Part shown: positions 21,094-29,879 of the stretch, piece after piece | Layout of the letters: each line of letters begins with the position of its first letter | How positions within the stretch are numbered: the stretch's first letter is position 1 | Assembly: GCF_000620045.1 (NCBI RefSeq) | Contig: NZ_JHVH01000009.1 | Coordinates: forward strand, 1-64,000 | Source of the DNA: Halomonas halodenitrificans DSM 735 | GTDB taxonomy: Bacteria > Pseudomonadota > Gammaproteobacteria > Pseudomonadales > Halomonadaceae | Length of the DNA stretch: 64,000 bases | Reading direction: 5' to 3' | The notes under the pieces: model-generated | The model's input: only the letters and a program-made list of their open reading frames with translations | The model's database searches: none | Told to the model about the DNA's origin: nothing | Position numbers and translations under genes: made by a program

Positions 21094-22473
21094 TCAGCAC
21101 TCGATGGCGTTGACGGCGAGGCCGCCGGTCGAGGTTTCCTTGTACTTGGCCTGCATGTCGGCGCCGGTGTCACGCATGGTACGAATCACCTTGTCCAGGG
21201 AGATAAAGTGCTCGCCGTCGCCGCGCAGCGCCATCTGGGCGGCGTTGATCGCCTTCACCGAGGCGATGGCGTTGCGCTCGATGCAGGGCACCTGCACCAG
21301 GCCACCCACCGGGTCGCAGGTCAGCCCCAGGTTATGCTCCAGGCCGATCTCGGCGGCATTTTCCACCTGGTCGACGTTGCCGCCCATCACCTCGGTGAGG
21401 CCGGCGGCGGCCATGGCACAGGCCGAGCCGACTTCGCCCTGGCAGCCCACCTCGGCCCCGGAGATGGAGGCGTTCTTCTTGCACAGGATGCCCACGGCGC
21501 CGGCCGTCAGCAGATACTCCACCACGTCGCGGTCGGTGGCGTCCTGGCGGAACTGCATGTAGTAGTGGAGCACCGCCGGGATGATACCCGCCGCGCCGTT
21601 GGTGGGGGCGGTAACCATGCGTCCGCCGGCGGCATTCTCCTCGTTGACCGCCAGGGCATAGAGGTTGACCCAGTCCATGGCCGACATGGTGGAGGCGATC
21701 AGCGAGTGGTCGTCCTGGCTCGCCAGCATGCTCTGATGCAGCTTACGGGCGCGCCGCTTGACGTTGAGCCCGCCGGGCAGCACGCCTTCGGCTTCCATTC
21801 CTGTCTTGATGCATGCCTGCATGGCCGCCCAGATGGCCAGCAGGCCCTCGTGGATTTCCGCCTCACTGCGCCATACCTTCTCGTTCTCCAGCATCAGCTC
21901 GCTGATGCTCAGGCCGTGCTCGTGGCACATGCGCAGCATCTCGTCGCCGGTCTGGAAGTCGAAGGGCAGCTGGGTCTGGTCGGTGTCCAGTGCTCCTTCG
22001 GCGGCCTGGGCCTCGTCGATCACGAAGCCGCCGCCCACCGAGTAGTAGGTGTTGCGGTAAAGCTCACCGCCATGGCCATGGGCGATCAGGCGCATGGCGT
22101 TGGGGTGGTGGGGCAGGTTCTCCTCGAGCATCTGCATGTCGCGGGCCCAGCGGAAGGAGACGCTGTATCGTCCACCCAGGCGCAGGGCCTCCGACTCCTG
22201 AAGCTCCTCGATGGAGGGACCGATGATATCGGGGTCGATGCTGTCGGGGCGCTCGCCCATCAGGCCCATGATCACCGCATGGTCGGTGCCATGGCCGATG
22301 CCGGTGGCGCAGAGTGAACCATAGAGCTGCACCTCCACCCGGGCGACACGGGACAGGAGGTCACGCTCATTGAGCTCGCCGATGAAATCGCAGGCGGCGC
22401 GCATCGGGCCCACGGTGTGTGAGCTCGAGGGGCCGATGCCGATCTTGAACAGGTCAAAGACGCTGATGGACAT
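21094..22473 (-). CDS. sdaA: L-serine ammonia-lyase (serine dehydratase), single-chain iron-sulfur type
   Basis: The product has 459 residues, full length. The alpha/beta order of SdaA is seen: [23 protein letters not shown], then [15 protein letters not shown], then the iron-sulfur region with Cys in [16 protein letters not shown], and [14 protein letters not shown]. It deaminates L-serine to pyruvate and ammonia using a 4Fe-4S cluster. ATG at 22473 is preferred to 22479 because its spacing to GAGGTG is better. It follows the serine importer sstT, so uptake and degradation are linked. Confidence 0.96.
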
Positions 22474-22565
22474 AGTCATTCACCTCTTGTTGTCAGGGTA
22501 GTCGTTCTTGTTATCTGAGTGGCGCGTGTTGTTTGAGCGGCACTTGTTGTCTGAGTGGCCGCCGA
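22474..22565 (-). repeat. Degenerate short direct repeats between sstT and sdaA
   Basis: On the minus strand, four variants of TCAGACAACAAG lie between the sstT stop and the sdaA ribosome binding site, at spacings of about 16-20 bases (TCAGACAACAAG, TCAAACAACAC, TCAGATAACAAG, CTGACAACAAG). They may be a slippage-derived spacer or RNA-binding repeats. Confidence 0.5.
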
Positions 22566-23789
22566 TCAGTGTCGGCGGCGCTCGACGGCGCGGCAGGCGG
22601 CCGCGGTAAACAACACGTCGGTGGAGGAGTTCAGGGCCGTTTCGGTGGAATCCTGCACCACGCTGATCACGAAGCCGATGGCGACGACCTGCATGGCCAC
22701 GTCGGTGGAGATGCCGAACAGGCTGGCGGCCATGGGGATCAGCAACAGCGAGCCGCCGGCGACGCCGGAAACGCCACAGGCGGCCAGCGCCGATACCACA
22801 CACAGCAGCAGGGCGGTGGGAAAGTCGACGTTGATGCCCAGGGTGTTGGCCGCGGCCAGGGTGATCACCGAGATGGTGACCGCCGCACCGGCCATGTTGA
22901 CGGTGGCGCCCAGCGGGATGGAGATGGCGTAGGTATCCGGGTCGAGCTCGAGGCGCTCGCATAGCGCCATGTTGACCGGAATGTTCGCCGCCGAGCTGCG
23001 CGTGAAGAAGGCGGTGATCGCGCTGCCGCGCAGGCAGGCGAAGACCAGCGGATAAGGATTGCGGCGGGTCTGCCAGAAGACGATCAGCGGGTTGGTCACC
23101 AGCGCCACGAACAGCATGCAGCCGACGATGATGCTAAGCAGTTGTCCATACTCGAGCAGCGCGCCCAGCCCGGCCTCGGCCAGGGTATTGGCGACCAGCC
23201 CGAAGATGCCCAGGGGGGCGAAGCGGATGACCACTCGCACGATGCCGGAGACCGCCTCGGAGAGGTCGTTCAAGGTATGGCGGGTGGCATCGCCGGCCTG
23301 GCGCAGCATCAGGCCGAGGCCGATGGCCCAGGCCAGGATCGCGATGAAGTTGGCCTCCATCAGCGCGGTCACCGGGTTGGCAACGGCATTGAGCAGCAGG
23401 TTGTGTAGAATCTCGATGACGCTGCCCGGCGGGTTGCCACTGACCTCGGGCATGTCGAGCGTCAGGGTGGTGGGGAAGGTGAAGCTGGCGACAACGGCGA
23501 CGAGGGCCGCCACCAGGGTACCGACCACGTAGAGGATCAGCACGCCGCGAATATGGGTGGGCTGTCCCTTGCGGTGCCCGGCGATGGCGGCCGCGACCAG
23601 CACGAACACCAGGATGGGCGCCACGGCCTTGAGGGCCGAGACGAACAGCTCACCCAGCAGCGAGAAGGAGCCGGCAAGCTCCGGTGACACGGTGGCGAGC
23701 AGGATGCCGCAGGCGATGCCGATGGCAATCTGGGTGATCAGGCCCAGGCGTAGTACGGGGCCGAACAGGGCGTTGAGCGTGGCAGTCAT
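22566..23789 (-). CDS. sstT: Serine/threonine:Na+ symporter SstT
   Basis: The product has 407 residues, a DAACS (SLC1-type) sodium symporter. The family cores are visible: [17 protein letters not shown] (hairpin 1, Ser-rich), [17 protein letters not shown] (the NMAGAA substrate/Na+ site) and [14 protein letters not shown] at the C-terminus. About eight membrane helices are predicted by eye. It imports serine and threonine. It lies upstream of sdaA and downstream of gcvT on the same strand, consistent with a serine/glycine catabolic transcript. Confidence 0.94.
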
Positions 23790-23929
23790 CGAGGATCTCT
23801 CGGGGGTTGGAGGCTTGCCGTCGGTCGGGCCGGATCAGGCGGCCCGGATGTGGCGGCCCCATCCTGGCGTGGTGTCGCCGGGACGGGGCTTTGGGTCTTG
23901 TATCACCGCTGGGAAAGGTTCCTGGGGCG

Positions 23930-25045
23930 TTAGCTGCCGCGATGGTAGCCCGGGGTGACGAAGGGGGTCTTGCTGACGGTCATGGGCAGATGCTTGCCCC
24001 GGACCTCGGCGTAAACGGTAGTGCCGACCTCGGTGTTGGCCAGGGTCACATAGCCCAGGGCGACCGGCTTGCCTACGCTGGGGCCGAAGCCACCGGAGGT
24101 GACCCGGCCGATCTCGTTGCCATCGGCGTCGAGCAGCGGGGCGCCCTCGCGCACCGGAGCGCGACCCTCGCCCAGCAGGCCGACGCGCTTGCGCCGGTGG
24201 TCCTTCTCGGCCACCTGATGGAGTATCAGGTCGGCGCCGGGGAACCCGCCGTGGCGCTCGCCGTCGCGGCGGCGCGGCTTGCTGATGGCCCAGATCAGCC
24301 CGGCCTCGACCGGGGTCGTGGTGGTGTCGATATCGTGGCCGTAGAGGCACAGGCCGGCTTCCAGGCGCAGAGAGTCGCGGGCGCCCAGGCCAATCGCCTC
24401 GACTTCCGGCTCGGCCAGCAGGCGGCGAGTCAGGGTGTCGGTCTGGTCGGCGGGCACCGAGATCTCGAAGCCATCCTCACCGGTATAGCCGCTGCGGCTG
24501 ATCCAGACTGGAATGCCGTCGATCTCGAAGTGACCATGCTGCATGAAGACCAGTTCGCTGACCTCGGGGCAGAGGCGCTTCAGGACCTCGGCGGTCCGGG
24601 GGCCCTGAATGGCGATCAGGCCGCGGTCCAGCTCCTCGAGCTCGTGTCCGTCGGGCAGGCCGCGGCGCAGGTGAGCGATATCCTGGGCCTTGCAGGCGGC
24701 ATTGACCACCAGATACAGGTGATTGCCGGCGTTGACCACCATCAGGTCATCGAGGATGCCGCCATCTTCGCTGGTGAACATCGTATAGCGCTGCATGCCC
24801 TCCGGCAGGCCGACGATATCCCCCGGTACCAGGGTCTCCAGTGCCTCGGCGGGGGCGGGGCCGCGCAGCAGCAGCTGACCCATGTGCGAGACGTCGAACA
24901 GCCCGCAGGCCGTACGCGTGTGCTCGTGCTCCTTCTTGACGCCGAGGGGATACTGCACCGGCATCTCATAGCCGGCGAAGGGCACCAGCTTGGCGCCGAG
25001 CTCGACGTGCAGGTCATGAAGGGGGGTGTGCTTCAGCTCGCTCAT
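23930..25045 (-). CDS. gcvT: Glycine cleavage system T protein (aminomethyltransferase)
   Basis: The product has 371 residues. GcvT marks include HTPLHDLHVELGAKLVPFAGYEMPVQY, FDVSHMGQ, SRSGYTGEDGFEI, LRLEAGLCLYGHDID and SKTPFVTPGY. It transfers the methylene of glycine to tetrahydrofolate from the H-protein. The H and P genes are not in the window. ATG at 25045 is chosen (MSELKHTPLHDL); the frame extends to 25081 without support. Two copies of a palindromic operator candidate lie upstream. Confidence 0.96.
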   Translation of the reverse strand: MSELKHTPLHDLHVELGAKLVPFAGYEMPVQYPLGVKKEHEHTRTACGLFDVSHMGQLLLRGPAPAEALETLVPGDIVGLPEGMQRYTMFTSEDGGILDDLMVVNAGNHLYLVVNAACKAQDIAHLRRGLPDGHELEELDRGLIAIQGPRTAEVLKRLCPEVSELVFMQHGHFEIDGIPVWISRSGYTGEDGFEISVPADQTDTLTRRLLAEPEVEAIGLGARDSLRLEAGLCLYGHDIDTTTTPVEAGLIWAISKPRRRDGERHGGFPGADLILHQVAEKDHRRKRVGLLGEGRAPVREGAPLLDADGNEIGRVTSGGFGPSVGKPVALGYVTLANTEVGTTVYAEVRGKHLPMTVSKTPFVTPGYHRGS

Positions 25046-25129
25046 GGGGGGCCTCCGATAACAGGGAAAACGCAGCGGCATGCCTCAAGGATAGCGGCAA
25101 CCGGATAGCATGGTGCCTAGAGTAGACGA

Positions 25130-25147
25130 TGTTTCCTATTGGAAACA
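25130..25147. promoter_or_regulatory. Palindromic operator candidate upstream of gcvT (site 1)
   Basis: TGTTTCCTATTGGAAACA is a 7-bp perfect inverted repeat around TATT, about 85 bases before the gcvT start. The regulator is unknown. An XRE- or GntR-type glycine/serine regulator is possible but is only inference. Confidence 0.6.
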
Positions 25148-25272
25148 ATGGAGATGGGAATGAATTCCGGCTGGAATCCTGGAATATCGGCAAGGCGGAA
25201 GGGGAGGAAGGCATGACGGAAGCCCGCCAGGCAAGCTGAAAGCCCCGCAGGCAAGGCGAAGGACGGATCCCG

Positions 25273-25290
25273 GTTTTCTTATTGGAAACA
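25273..25290. promoter_or_regulatory. Palindromic operator candidate upstream of gcvT (site 2)
   Basis: GTTTTCTTATTGGAAACA matches site 1 at 15 of 18 positions. Its centre is 143 bases from site 1, which suits cooperative binding or looping. Confidence 0.55.
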
Positions 25291-25372
25291 TCTCGGCGGC
25301 GGGTGGCCGCCGTGCCGCGGTCGCTTGGCGGGAGAGCGGTCGGCCGTTAGGGCCGCGCGTCTCGTTGGCATC

Positions 25373-25404
25373 GCCGATGGGGCCGGCGCAGGGGCCCCAT
25401 CGGC
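25373..25404 (-). terminator. Hairpin terminator after the isocitrate dehydrogenase gene
   Basis: GCCGATGGGGCC pairs with GGCCCCATCGGC around a short loop, about 20 bases downstream of the stop codon on the minus strand. Confidence 0.75.
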
Positions 25405-25422
25405 ATTACCGGCGTCCGGGGC

Positions 25423-27156
25423 TCAGAGCCGGCTGGCCACGGCGTCGAGGAAGCCCTGCATATCGACCAGCGTCTCGTTGGCCGGGTCGCTGGTCTTGCC
25501 CTTGAGGTCACCGGTAATGAAGCCGGCATCCACGGTCGCGATCAGTGCTTCCTTGAGGCGCTGGGCGTACTCCACCAGCGCGGGGCTCCCCTCGCGCTCG
25601 CCGAGGGTCTCCAGGGCGTTGGCCACGGCGAACAGCAGGGCGGAGGAGTTGAAGTGTGCCTCGCGGCCATCGGTCTCCAGGTACTTGAGGTAGAGGTCGT
25701 GGGCGGTGCCGTGGGGCGCCTCGAACAGCATGGTCCCGTCCTTGCTCTCGATGATCGAGCTGGCGGTGGCCAGGCTGCCACCGAGGGCGGCGGAGATATC
25801 CGAGAAGATGTCGCCGTCCAGGTTCTGCGCCGGATAGAGGGCGTTGCGGGGTGGGTCGGTGATCATCTTCATGAGCTGACTGGAGGGTCGCATGATCATG
25901 AACGAGGGAGGCGGGGTATCGTTGTCGGCCAGTTCGCGACGCACGTCGGTGATCACGGTGCTGAACACGTCGTCGTATTCCATGTATTCGCGCTTGAGGC
26001 CGAAGTAGACCTCCTTGCTCTTGCGCGAGGCATCGCGGAACACCTGCAGCACCCAGTCCTTGATCGCCGCGTGATCGTTGGACATCAGCAGGATCGGGTC
26101 ACCCTTCTTGACGTGTCGAGCGTGCTTTTCCTCGCCGTCGACGATTACCTTGAGGATGCCGTTCTCGTCGGCGGGGGCGTTGAAGCTGCCATACTGGTCG
26201 CCGCCGCCGGCGCTCATGCGCGAGATGGAAACCTGGGCCTTGCGGTCGGGGATACCGAACGCCTTGAGCTGTTCGACCAGCTTGTAGAGCTTGCGACCGG
26301 TGTTGTTGTCGGGCACGCCCCAGATGGCCCGCTCCGGCGGGTTGGCGACCAGGCGTGCGGCCTGGGCGTCGATGAGCTCGTAGAAGTAGCCGAGGCCCAG
26401 CGCCTCGACTTGCCGGCGGTAGTGCTCTTCGAAGATGCTCTCGATGGCGGCACGCATCACGCCGTCATAGCCGGCGATGACGGTGTCCTTGAGGCCCAGG
26501 TAGATATCGCGCTTCTCGTCGATGGCGCGCTGGAAGAAGCGATGTGCCCAGGCCTTGACGTCTTCCAGGTCGTTGGTGGCCAGCAGCCAGGGGTCGCCCT
26601 TGCGCACCTCGCGGCGGTGCAGTTCCACCGGGTCGCCGCTCGAGCCCACGAACATCAGCTTGACCACGCCGGTGTCGCGGGAGAGCTCGTTGAAGCTGTC
26701 CTTGATGCCACCGACCTCCATGGTGTCGACCACGATATCGCGGCCGACCCACTCGGGACGCTTGACCAGGAGGTTGCGGAACTGGATGTCCTCGCGGGTG
26801 ATATTGCCGCCGATTCCCTTGCGGATGGCGCCATTGGGGGACTTGGTGGCCAGCGGGTGCAGCCGGGTACCGTCGAGGTCGGGATGCTTGGCGAGCAGCT
26901 CGCCGAGCTGGGTGCGGTTGACCGTCATGCCGGCATTCTTGATGCCCACGCCGTGGCGCTTGAGTGCCTCGACGGCATCGATCACTACCTGGCCGTTGGT
27001 CACCAGACGGTTCTCGGCGGAGAGGTCGATCTCGACGAGCGGAATCTCTAGCCGGGAAGTCACGAAGGTATCGAGAATCTTCTCGAAGGCTACCTGGGCC
27101 ATTTCGTCACCATGGAGGATAACCAGGGGGGCCTCGACTCTGATCTTGCTGCTCAT
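25423..27156 (-). CDS. Isocitrate/isopropylmalate-family dehydrogenase, type II-like with internal duplication
   Basis: The product has 577 residues, against about 410 for a type II isocitrate dehydrogenase. The frame matches the type II plan: VILHGDEMAQV (12-22), GIKNAGMTV (71-79), TKSPNGAIRKGIGGNITRE (104-122), LDGDIFSDISAALGGSLA (447-463) and FEAPHGTAHDLY (478-489). The middle module (clasp plus catalytic Lys and Asp helices) occurs twice, at about 138-285 and 304-447. Examples are VRKGDPWLLATND against VKKGDPILLMSND, and YLGLKDTVIAGYDGV against YFGLKREYMEYDDVF. ATG at 27156 is preferred; the frame runs to 27231. NADP-linked isocitrate oxidation is inferred; the true substrate is open. Confidence 0.8.
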   Translation of the reverse strand: MSSKIRVEAPLVILHGDEMAQVAFEKILDTFVTSRLEIPLVEIDLSAENRLVTNGQVVIDAVEALKRHGVGIKNAGMTVNRTQLGELLAKHPDLDGTRLHPLATKSPNGAIRKGIGGNITREDIQFRNLLVKRPEWVGRDIVVDTMEVGGIKDSFNELSRDTGVVKLMFVGSSGDPVELHRREVRKGDPWLLATNDLEDVKAWAHRFFQRAIDEKRDIYLGLKDTVIAGYDGVMRAAIESIFEEHYRRQVEALGLGYFYELIDAQAARLVANPPERAIWGVPDNNTGRKLYKLVEQLKAFGIPDRKAQVSISRMSAGGGDQYGSFNAPADENGILKVIVDGEEKHARHVKKGDPILLMSNDHAAIKDWVLQVFRDASRKSKEVYFGLKREYMEYDDVFSTVITDVRRELADNDTPPPSFMIMRPSSQLMKMITDPPRNALYPAQNLDGDIFSDISAALGGSLATASSIIESKDGTMLFEAPHGTAHDLYLKYLETDGREAHFNSSALLFAVANALETLGEREGSPALVEYAQRLKEALIATVDAGFITGDLKGKTSDPANETLVDMQGFLDAVASRL

Positions 27157-27244
27157 CGCCTCGTCTCTTTTCTGCACGCTGGAAGGTGCCCATAGGGTAC
27201 GCCGGAAGGTCGGGTGGCGCCATGCCTCCAAGGGGGCAGGCCCC

Positions 27245-28492
27245 TCAATCGTCGCTGCCGGCCCAGCGTTCGTCCGGGTGCACCTCGTTGGCGGGGAGTA
27301 CCGGGTCGTAGCCGTCGCGGCGCAACGCCTCGATCACCTCGCGGGTGTGGTCGCTGCCCAGGGTCTCCAGGGTGGCTTCCACCTCGGTGGAGCGCAGCGA
27401 GAGGTCGGTGAAGGTGCGATGGTGGGCGATATGAATGACGTTGGCATGCTGTTCGGCGAGCTGTCTCGTCAGCTCGGCCAGGGCGCCGGGCACGTCGGGA
27501 ATGGCGACGCGCACGCGCACGATACGCCCCGAACGCACCAGGCCGCGCTGGATGACCGAGGAGAGCGCCAGCATGTCGATATTGCCGCCGCACAGCACCA
27601 GTCCCACCTTGCGGCCGCGGTAGCGTTCCGGATCGGACAGCACCGCGGCCAGGCCGGCGGCGCCGGCGCCTTCTGCCACGCTCTTCTCGATCTCCAGCAG
27701 CAGCAGGATGGCGCGCTCTATCTCGGGCTCGTCCACCAGCACGATATCGCGCACCCGTTCGCGAATGATGGGCAGGGTCAGCGTGCCGGGCTGCTTGACG
27801 GCGATGCCTTCGGCCAGGGTGGCGAGTCCGCAATGGATCTCCTCTCCGGCCAGCGCCTGCTGCATGGCCGGAAAGCGCTGGGTCTGCACGCCCACGATCT
27901 CGATGTCGGGCTTGAGCTCGGTGGCGGCGATGGCGTTGCCGCCGATCAGCCCGCCACCGCCGACGGGGATCACCAGGGCATCCAGGTCCGGGGTATCCTC
28001 GAGCATCTCCAGGGCGATGGTGCCTTGCCCGGCGATGATGCGTTCGTCGTCGTAGGGGTGGACGAAGACCAGGTCGCGCTCGGCGGCCAGGCGATGGGCG
28101 TAGTCGCCGGCCTCGGCGACGCCCTCGCCCTCGAGGTGCACCTCCGCCCCGAGCTTGCGGGTATTGTGTACCTTGAGGTTGGGCGTATGCCGGGGCATGA
28201 CGATGGTGGCGCGGATGCCCAGCCGTGCGGCGTGGTAGGCCACCGCCTGAGCGTGGTTGCCGGCCGACATGGCGATGACGCCGCGCTCTCTCTCCTGTTG
28301 GGAGAGTGTCAGCAGATGGTTCAACGCCCCGCGCTCCTTGAAGGCGGCGGTGAACTGGTGGTTCTCGAACTTGATGTAGAGCTCGCAGCCGGCGATTCGC
28401 GACAGGGTGTGCGAGATCAGGCAGGGGGTGCGCTCCACACTGCCCCGGATACGCTCGGCGGCGATACGGATATCATCGAGGGTAACGCTCAT
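27245..28492 (-). CDS. Threonine ammonia-lyase (short, single ACT-type domain)
   Basis: The product has 415 residues. Fold-type II PLP domain: Lys52 in FTAAFKERGA binds PLP, SAGNHAQAVAYHA and VIPVGGGGLIGG hold the cofactor phosphate, and LCGGNID follows. A C-terminal ACT-like domain (about 325-400, VAIPDVPGALAELTRQLAE) gives allosteric control. It deaminates threonine to 2-oxobutanoate. The length fits the short forms usually called ilvA or tdcB, so a catabolic or isoleucine-biosynthetic role cannot be separated. It lies near sstT, which also imports threonine. Confidence 0.93.
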   Translation of the reverse strand: MSVTLDDIRIAAERIRGSVERTPCLISHTLSRIAGCELYIKFENHQFTAAFKERGALNHLLTLSQQERERGVIAMSAGNHAQAVAYHAARLGIRATIVMPRHTPNLKVHNTRKLGAEVHLEGEGVAEAGDYAHRLAAERDLVFVHPYDDERIIAGQGTIALEMLEDTPDLDALVIPVGGGGLIGGNAIAATELKPDIEIVGVQTQRFPAMQQALAGEEIHCGLATLAEGIAVKQPGTLTLPIIRERVRDIVLVDEPEIERAILLLLEIEKSVAEGAGAAGLAAVLSDPERYRGRKVGLVLCGGNIDMLALSSVIQRGLVRSGRIVRVRVAIPDVPGALAELTRQLAEQHANVIHIAHHRTFTDLSLRSTEVEATLETLGSDHTREVIEALRRDGYDPVLPANEVHPDERWAGSDD

Positions 28493-28647
28493 TAGGCGGC
28501 TCCTGTTCGTGTCCGGTTATCATTTTCATGATGCGGCGTCGCGGTGTGGATGTCGAAGTGGATCGCGAAACGGATGCTTAAACATCGAAGCCTGGGATAG
28601 AGTTCAGGCATGCCCGGTGGGGAGTGTTCTGCCATGAGGAGAGTGTG

Positions 28648-29406
28648 ATGAACGCAAGCAAGATACTCGGACAACTGATGCAGCAGGCCGGTGGTCAGTC
28701 CGGTGGCCGGTCGAATGACGAGGGGGCGGGCGGCTCCGGCCTGGATATCAAGGGCATGCTCGACGGCCTCTCCCGCCAGTTCGGGGGTGGCCAGAGCCGC
28801 GACGGCCAGGACGGCGGCTCGGGGCTCGATGTGAAGAGCCTGCTGGGCGGTGGTGCCCTGGGGCTGCTGGTGGGCTCCAGGCGGGGGCGCAAACTGGGCG
28901 GCAAGGCGCTCAAGTATGGCGCCATCGCCGGCGTGGGGATGCTGGCCTGGAAGGCGTGGCAGAATTCACGCGGCGACTCGTCCACATCAGGCGAGCCGAG
29001 CGATGCGTCGCCCGCCGAGGGCGAACCGGTGGAGCAGCTGGGCGGCGAGGCCCAGGAGCAGCGTAGCCTGGCGCTGCTGCAGGCGATGATCATGGCCGCC
29101 CGCGCCGATGGCCATATCGATGACCAGGAGCGCGAGCTGATCGCCGGGCAGGTCGATGCCCTGGGGGCCGACCAGGAACTGCACGCCTGGATGGAGCGTC
29201 AGCTTCAGGCGCCGTTGGACGCCGAGGCCCTGGCGGCGCGGGTCGAGTCGCCCCAGGCGGCCCGGGAGATGTACCTGATCAGCGTCGCGGTGGTCGATGA
29301 ACAGAACGCCATGGAGCGTGCCTGGCTCGACCAGTTGGGCAAGGCCCTGGCATTGCCCGACGACGTGACCGCGGAGCTCGAGCGCCAGGCCAGGGAGGCC
29401 GGCTGA
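28648..29406 (+). CDS. DUF533/TerB-like protein
   Basis: The product has 252 residues. A Gly-rich low-complexity N-terminus (1-55) precedes a short hydrophobic segment (about 65-105, LLGGGALGLLVGSRRGRKLGG and YGAIAGVGMLAWKAW). The C-terminal DUF533 (TerB-fold) domain (about 140-245) reads ALLQAMIMAARADGHIDDQERELI. The ADGHIDDQE turn is a TerB-type acidic motif. The family is probably membrane-associated and of unknown function. GAGGAG precedes ATG 28648. Its stop overlaps the pgpA start by one base (TGATG), so the pair is co-translated. Confidence 0.88.
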   Translation: MNASKILGQLMQQAGGQSGGRSNDEGAGGSGLDIKGMLDGLSRQFGGGQSRDGQDGGSGLDVKSLLGGGALGLLVGSRRGRKLGGKALKYGAIAGVGMLAWKAWQNSRGDSSTSGEPSDASPAEGEPVEQLGGEAQEQRSLALLQAMIMAARADGHIDDQERELIAGQVDALGADQELHAWMERQLQAPLDAEALAARVESPQAAREMYLISVAVVDEQNAMERAWLDQLGKALALPDDVTAELERQAREAG

Positions 29407-29879
29407 TGGCCGATCCCCTGATGGCGCTGGCCACCGGCTTCGGCCTGGGGCTCTCACCCTGGGCCTCGGGCACGGTGGGCTCGCTTCTCGGTCTGGTGCT
29501 GGCCTGGTGGCTGCTGGGGCGAACCCGGCGAGTGCAGGTGGCGGTCACGCTGGCGCTGCTGCTCGCCGCGGTGCCGGTGTGTCACCTGGCCGAGCAGGCA
29601 CTGGGCGGCAAGGATGATGGGCGCATCGTGTTCGACGAGATCGTCGCCTTCCCCGTGGCGGTCGTGGGCCAGGCCGCGGCGCGCCAGCCCCTGGTACTGG
29701 CGTCCGCCTTCGTGGTCTATCGGGTATTGGATGCCACCAAGCCGCCGCCGGTGAGCCTGGCCGAGGCGGTTCCCGGCGGCGTCGGCATCGTGCTCGACGA
29801 CGTGATCGCCGCGGCCATGACCTGGCTGGTGATGGCCGCGGGCCTGGCCCTCTGGCGCCGGCGTCAGGCCTCTTCCTGA
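29406..29879 (+). CDS. pgpA: Phosphatidylglycerophosphatase A
   Basis: The product has 157 residues and several membrane segments. PgpA marks are GFGLGLSPWASGTVGSL, IVFDEIVAFPVAV (the DE motif) and ATKPPPVSLAEAVPGGVGIVLDDVIAA (the DD metal site), given here in parts. It dephosphorylates phosphatidylglycerophosphate to phosphatidylglycerol in the inner membrane. It is coupled to the DUF533 gene. In many relatives pgpA follows thiL, so this location is less usual. Confidence 0.93.
   Translation: MADPLMALATGFGLGLSPWASGTVGSLLGLVLAWWLLGRTRRVQVAVTLALLLAAVPVCHLAEQALGGKDDGRIVFDEIVAFPVAVVGQAAARQPLVLASAFVVYRVLDATKPPPVSLAEAVPGGVGIVLDDVIAAAMTWLVMAAGLALWRRRQASS

Follow-up and report, generated by a model that had tools for sequence, protein, structure and literature searches.

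The window, a stretch of 64,000 nucleotides from Halomonas halodenitrificans DSM 735, carries on its minus strand a gene for a 577-residue isocitrate dehydrogenase (IDH), the parts of which are collected in Table 1. The coordinates and length given in the original prediction were right, and the strand was absent from it. A GA-rich stretch lies immediately 5' of the ATG and is a possible ribosome-binding site. Conservation places the substrate residues Thr78, Ser106, Asn108, Arg112 and Arg121 in the first part of the chain, and the last part holds the metal ligands Asp449 and Asp453 together with the NAD-type pair Asp487 and Leu488. A predicted helix of residues 284-300, mostly within the linker, connects the two module copies in the models.

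Table 1. Coding sequence, protein segments and key codons of the IDH gene in the window.
Feature	Position	Strand	Basis or remark
Coding sequence, 577 aa (P0001)	25423..27156	-	ATG 27156-27154, stop 25425-25423
Residues 1-139, first half of type II large domain	26740..27156	-	hhalign, conservation
Copy 1 of small-domain/clasp module, residues 140-287	26296..26739	-	keeps K223, D263
Linker, residues 288-307	26236..26295	-	AlphaFold2 models
Copy 2 of module, residues 308-441	25834..26235	-	keeps R313, Y322 (GDQY), K388
Residues 442-577, remainder of type II large domain	25426..25833	-	hhalign, conservation
K223 codon (type II K212 position)	26488..26490	-	K in 98/98 family records
D263 codon (type II D252 position)	26368..26370	-	D in 98/98 family records
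R313 codon (type II R132 position)	26218..26220	-	R in 98/98 family records
Y322 codon (type II Y139 position)	26191..26193	-	Y in 98/98 family records
K388 codon, second copy of catalytic-lysine position	25993..25995	-	K in 98/98 family records
D487-L488 codons, NAD-specificity pair	25693..25698	-	same numbers as ClIDH Asp487/Leu488

Judged by its sequence, the protein is an ordinary member of a known family of homohexameric NAD-dependent IDHs, that of ClIDH from Congregibacter litoralis, which the original prediction had not named, and we found nothing that sets the window protein apart from this family. In PMC4420465, ClIDH is described as an NAD+-specific, homohexameric type II IDH of 580 residues, its extra 163 residues are presented as an insertion on which hexamer formation and activity depend, and ClIDH lacking Asn272-Met314 and Gly319-Trp438 is reported to be an inactive monomer. 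Halomonas anticariensis, now Litchfieldella anticariensis, is named among the relatives of ClIDH in the same paper, and the ortholog from this species is 85% identical to the window protein; ClIDH itself was compared through its published description. The window protein resembles it in its length of about 580 residues, in the Asp-Leu pair that replaces Arg-His at the coenzyme site, and in leaving residues 273-439 unmatched when aligned by phmmer to the type II chain 4aou. By analogy with ClIDH we infer that the window enzyme is NAD-specific and hexameric. What is new here is that the extra segment is read as a second copy of a module, the family itself being known: a literature search that covered few subscription papers found no printed account of a module duplication in ClIDH, and the string 'duplicat' is absent from the main texts of PMC4420465, PMC4360740, PMC8287583 and PMC10380307.

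The original prediction had proposed that the middle module of a type II IDH is present twice, and on self-comparison by Smith-Waterman alignment against shuffles, profile HMMs and hhalign the repeat was found, with residues 141-279 aligning to residues 309-441. Local alignment of residues 140-290 with 301-460 yielded 128 aligned pairs, of which 39 are identical, and scored 139, against a mean of 28.6 for shuffled sequences (sd 4.8, maximum 58), and none of 2000 shuffles reached it. Across the 98 family records, selected from 114 phmmer hits by a score of more than 800 bits (the next hit scoring 152.6 bits) and comprising 89 distinct proteins with the window gene counted more than once, the same score ranged from 112 to 181. 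An HMM built from copy 1 found copy 2 of the window protein with 51.1 bits (E 7.2e-14) and the reverse search gave 47.8 bits (E 7.9e-13), both E values being calculated for a nominal 10,000 sequences, and hhalign aligned the copies with a z of 26.8 that was not equalled by any of 100 column shuffles. In the model of residues 113-460 the secondary structure of both copies follows one order, in which five strands and a helix are succeeded by a strand, a long helix, a strand, a helix and a last strand, and the linker helix lies between the copies. The motifs were also as predicted: KGDP, ND and GLK occur in both copies, KDTVIAGYDG and IDAQA are restricted to copy 1, and LDGDIFSD follows copy 2; to these we add GDQY with the catalytic tyrosine, which was absent from the prediction and is present in copy 2 only. 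The duplicated module in the 577-residue protein is real.

Outside the two copies the chain is type II in sequence, as had been predicted for both ends. Type II homodimeric NADP-IDHs, such as that of PDB entry 4aou, have an active site common to two chains. They possess one small-domain/clasp module per chain, whereas the window protein has two, and phmmer matches 4aou to residues 3-272 and 440-573 of the query. Residues 1-139 matched the N-terminal part of the type II profile with an hhalign z of 49.0 but that of type III, the monomeric IDHs, with only 2.7 (2 of 100 shuffles as high), and for residues 444-577 the values were 37.9 for the type II C-terminal part and 3.0 for type III (0 of 100 shuffles as high); type II itself compared with type III over the same flanks gave −0.3 and 2.3. 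Copy 1 is likewise clearly type II (z 20.6), copy 2 far less so (z 5.8). The type II set comprised 32 proteobacterial sequences (32 of 33 loci, with L151 left out; 14 in the full-length hhalign comparison) and the type III set 30 sequences, those given as loci among 34 matches. The window protein misses the curated cut-offs of the type II models NF006156 (228 of 335 bits) and TIGR00127 (174.5 of 397.15 bits).

In type II IDHs Arg132 and Tyr139 act in the site of their own subunit, whereas Lys212 and Asp252 act on the substrate and metal of the neighbouring subunit; for the numbering and the roles we assume those of human IDH1. Based on module alignments of about 20-30% identity, on which all residue equivalences given here depend, Arg132 and Tyr139 correspond to Thr145 and Lys152 in copy 1 and to Arg313 and Tyr322 in copy 2, Lys212 corresponds to Lys223 in copy 1 and Lys388 in copy 2, and Asp252 corresponds to Asp263 in copy 1 and Ser425 in copy 2. 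All eight of these residues are invariant in the 98 family records, as are Thr78, Asn108, Arg112, Arg121, Asp449 and Asp453; Asp487 and Leu488 are kept in all 98, and position 106 is Ser in 97. On these alignments each residue needed by the active site occurs once per chain and the lysine position alone is doubled. The position aligned with Lys388 in copy 2 of type III enzymes is Asp in 23, Asn in 4 and Ser in 3 of 30 records, and a role at the hexamer interface or a vestige are possible reasons for the invariance of Lys388 in the ClIDH family.

Two AlphaFold2 models were compared with known structures. Of 119 PDB sequence matches, the best 60 included no solved structure of the ClIDH family. 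The full-length model, made from a shallow alignment of 38 sequences that are all at least 76% identical, was of moderate quality (pLDDT 71.9, pTM 0.54). Foldseek placed type III IDHs at ranks 1-11 with a best E of 2.7e-26, compared to 7.4e-24 for type II, and VIA fitted the model to 1itw over 539 residues at 4.9 Å (Z 28.5), compared to 377 residues at 17.6 Å for the best type II chain (Z 25.2); a few type II chains, with Z near 23, fitted about 370 residues at 4-5 Å. The second model, limited to residues 113-460, was better (pLDDT 78.3, pTM 0.77). In Foldseek type III IDHs held ranks 1-14 (E 3.2e-19 to 4.1e-17) with type II next at 7.6e-9, and in VIA, with low-confidence stretches left out, 322 of its 348 residues fitted residues 160-559 of 1itw at 2.8 Å (Z 29.2). 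VIA listed eight type III entries, with Z of 28.4-29.2; the other 42 were type II IDHs with Z of at most 15.2 over 156-172 residues, which is about one copy's worth. As the fit to 1itw extends across both copies, the model places them as in domain II of monomeric IDH, although caution is needed in that the sequence alignment was shallow and AlphaFold2, trained on monomeric IDH structures, may be recalling them.

Domain II of the monomeric, type III IDHs consists of two copies of the module, and according to the models the same would hold for the window protein. The catalytic lysine in copy 1 and tyrosine in copy 2, Lys223 and Tyr322, align with Lys319 and Tyr484 of the type III frame in the same genome, and the two aspartates after copy 2 also line up with type III; the aspartate of copy 1 is unplaced by the alignments and was equated with that of type III through the Ile-Asp-Ala motif and its role. 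The corresponding residues of the Azotobacter enzyme are presumably Lys255, Asp350, Tyr420, Asp548 and Asp552, with Tyr322 taken to be equivalent to Tyr420. Unlike type III IDHs, which have about 740 residues, the window protein has 577, and the rest of its chain is of type II. Full-length hhalign of the ClIDH family with type III spans both copies (E 1.5e-5, probability 79.8), compared to an E of 0.0026 for type II with type III, and PF03971 scored 23.4 bits against a Pfam gathering threshold of 25, over residues 281-538 only. Domain duplication in monomeric IDH reportedly goes back to Yasutake 2002, and in PMC5979607 duplication is already given as the origin of monomeric IDH. Type III enzymes are mostly monomers with some dimers and tetramers (PMC5979607, PMC8287583), whereas ClIDH is a hexamer.

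Computation establishes the duplication, the split of the conserved residues and the match of the models to monomeric IDH, and in light of these results we propose that the NAD+-dependent enzymes of the ClIDH type are, with good probability, single-chain pseudo-dimers with one composite active site. One large domain would bear the small-domain/clasp module twice, as diverged copies in tandem, with copy 2 acting as the chain's own module through Arg313 and Tyr322 and copy 1 acting as that of the partner through Lys223 and Asp263; within a single chain the two copies would fold together in the manner of monomeric IDH domain II, and each chain would thus build one composite site. From the models we infer that this site lies within one chain and not between the chains of the hexamer. 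The suggestion in the original prediction that a single chain might imitate the dimer clasp is supported as regards the imitation, given the residue split and a two-copy model that matches monomeric IDH domain II, but not for the clasp alone, as the part imitated is the partner's small domain together with its clasp. Among the points against a pseudo-dimer are the invariant Lys388 in copy 2, which should be unneeded in a purely partitioned pair, the moderate quality and shallow alignment of the full-length model, and its Foldseek comparison, in which type II chains score nearly as well as type III. The ClIDH-type enzymes, type II in the remainder of their sequence, most likely function as monomeric IDH does.

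A composite site between chains, in which copy 1 gives its lysine and aspartate to the large domain of another chain of a domain-swapped hexamer, would be in keeping with type II IDHs, which share residues across chains, and with the hexameric state reported for the ClIDH family in PMC4420465, but both single-chain models fit monomeric IDH best and we regard such a swap as unlikely. The published view, in which the extra 163 residues are a small-domain insertion that holds the hexamer and copy 1 is an ordinary small domain with its clasp, draws on the truncated ClIDH, monomeric and inactive in PMC4420465; however, this segment repeats the module, copy 1 has neither the Arg nor the Tyr of type II at the matching positions in any of the 98 records and so could not act as an ordinary small domain, and the two-copy model matches domain II of monomeric IDH throughout, which leaves this view improbable. 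Moreover, if the numbering of ClIDH is that of the window protein, as it is at positions 487 and 488, the truncation removed Arg313 and Tyr322, and their loss would by itself explain the inactive protein. A regulatory role for one copy had also been considered in the original prediction, and this did not find support, each copy keeping residues that a type II active site needs; a regulatory or ligand-binding copy 2 with no catalytic role could draw on the invariance of Lys388, Arg423 and Ser425 in 98 of 98 records, but the sole GDQY tyrosine of the chain and the matching arginine sit in copy 2, and we consider such a role very improbable.

We also asked whether the duplication in the ClIDH family is the one that is seen in the monomeric enzymes. 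Two histories were compared: in one, the module was duplicated separately in the ClIDH family and in the type III IDHs and their likeness is convergent, which we hold to be slightly more probable than not, and in the other, a single duplication in a type II-like ancestor gave rise to both, with the ClIDH family as a surviving link, which is a tentative and less probable reading. For a tree of five modules all 15 topologies were scored on an alignment of 117 columns, in which each group was represented by 10 sequences (50 of 74 picked). In the best tree each family's own copies 1 and 2 are joined (UFBoot 96 and 95). The topology expected from a shared duplication falls 10.65 log units behind; RELL bootstrap (0.0061) and ELW (0.006) exclude it, but it passes the KH (0.128), SH (0.6) and AU (0.196) tests. 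Long branches separate the module groups (1.2 to 2.6 changes per site for a single group), and the two longest, those of the type III copies, are the ones grouped, so that long-branch attraction is a worry for the independent reading. In quartets of four modules with 7 sequences per group, AU rejected no topology and the outcome depended on the type III copy used: when type III copy 2 was included, it was joined to ClIDH copy 2 in the best tree, with bootstrap values of 0.755 and 0.769 in two alignments, and when type III copy 1 was included, both ClIDH copies were joined, at 0.733 in one alignment and at 0.432 in the other, where another topology had 0.449.

Profile comparisons gave evidence in both directions. 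The z of 26.8 between the two ClIDH copies exceeds that of 14.4 between ClIDH copy 2 and type III copy 2, type III copy 1 is closer to type II (z 7.3) than to ClIDH copy 1 (z 2.5), and a copy-2 profile that includes the DGD stretch following the copy scored type II PDB chains at 24.9 bits, higher than type III at 17.4 bits, all of which agree with independent duplications. On the other hand, type III copy 2 matches ClIDH copy 2 with a z of 14.4, compared to 4.2 for type II and 2.1 for ClIDH copy 1, and the Pfam model of monomeric IDH matches 38 of 38 copy-2 segments but none of 38 copy-1 segments, both at E up to 0.05, and at E up to 1 it matches none of 11 type II proteins. Matches to the general IDH model, PF00180, were obtained for 37 of 38 copy-2 and 6 of 38 copy-1 segments, and when a single copy-2 segment was searched against the PDB the top match was the copy-2 region of Campylobacter type III IDH, its E of 0.56 being no better than that of chance hits. 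The linker also shows a slight likeness to the type III linker (hhalign z 2.6, with 2 of 100 shuffles equal or higher), which alone would be weak evidence on the question. Taken together, the profile scores favour sharing and the module tree favours independence, with the AU test leaving sharing standing.

The change from a site shared between subunits to a self-sufficient chain is known here from its finished product, monomeric IDH, and the ClIDH family seems to have taken the same step in an otherwise type II chain, in which the copies visibly divide the residues between them. The residue split offers a mechanistic reason for the dead ClIDH truncation, from which the segment had earlier been read as one for the hexamer and catalysis. 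In PMC4420465 and PMC10380307 ClIDH is called an ancestor of type II, and this would be weakened because possession of two copies of a module is a derived state. For type III IDHs an independent evolution is stated in PMC5979607, PMC4360740, PMC8287583 and PMC10380307. Were the duplication common with type III, the origin of monomeric IDH would become directly testable; sharing would then show that a two-chain site moved into one chain while the rest was still type II, and would contradict both the published independent origin of the three IDH types and the placing of ClIDH as type II ancestor.

The nearest named relatives of the window protein, among the best 80 of 187, are from Halomonas (up to 97% identity), followed by Marinobacter and other Gammaproteobacteria; these 80 are 76-97% identical and match over 573 to 577 of the 577 residues. 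Full-length matches were found in 21 of 38 close relatives, including 19 of 25 genomes of the genus, and matches at E 1e-40 or better in 7 of 369 Gammaproteobacteria and 4 of 398 Pseudomonadota genomes, the own genome being counted in each case. No in-between enzymes were found in the Pseudomonadota, Gammaproteobacteria, close relatives, plasmid records or viral contigs. Plasmid records gave 64 matches, all below 60% identity, and the 20 listed of these 64 look like single-module type II enzymes; in viral contigs no relative was found for ClIDH, type II or type III queries. Outside the window, the own genome also has a monomeric type III IDH (G000:C12:80297-82498, minus strand) and a type I IDH (G000:C12:82704-83948, plus strand), which adjoin in divergent orientation, so that with the window gene three kinds of IDH are present. 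Within the genus, where many assemblies are drafts, 8 of 25 genomes are without a type I IDH match (E 1e-100), and all 8 have the window enzyme and a type III IDH.

The minus-strand neighbours of the gene (window positions 21094-28492) resemble, by eye from their translations, genes of serine, threonine and glycine metabolism, namely a serine dehydratase, an SstT-like transporter and gcvT, with ilvA directly upstream of the IDH gene. Among 80 related loci, each taken with at most 3 kb of flanking sequence, ilvA matched in 31, sstT in 18, gcvT in 8 and sdaA in 1, and the link to ilvA holds at most in part of the family. On the plus strand, a glycine-rich open reading frame at 28624-29406 has matches in 10 of the 80 related loci, and the frame that follows it (29406-29879) appears by eye to be phosphatidylglycerophosphatase A-like.
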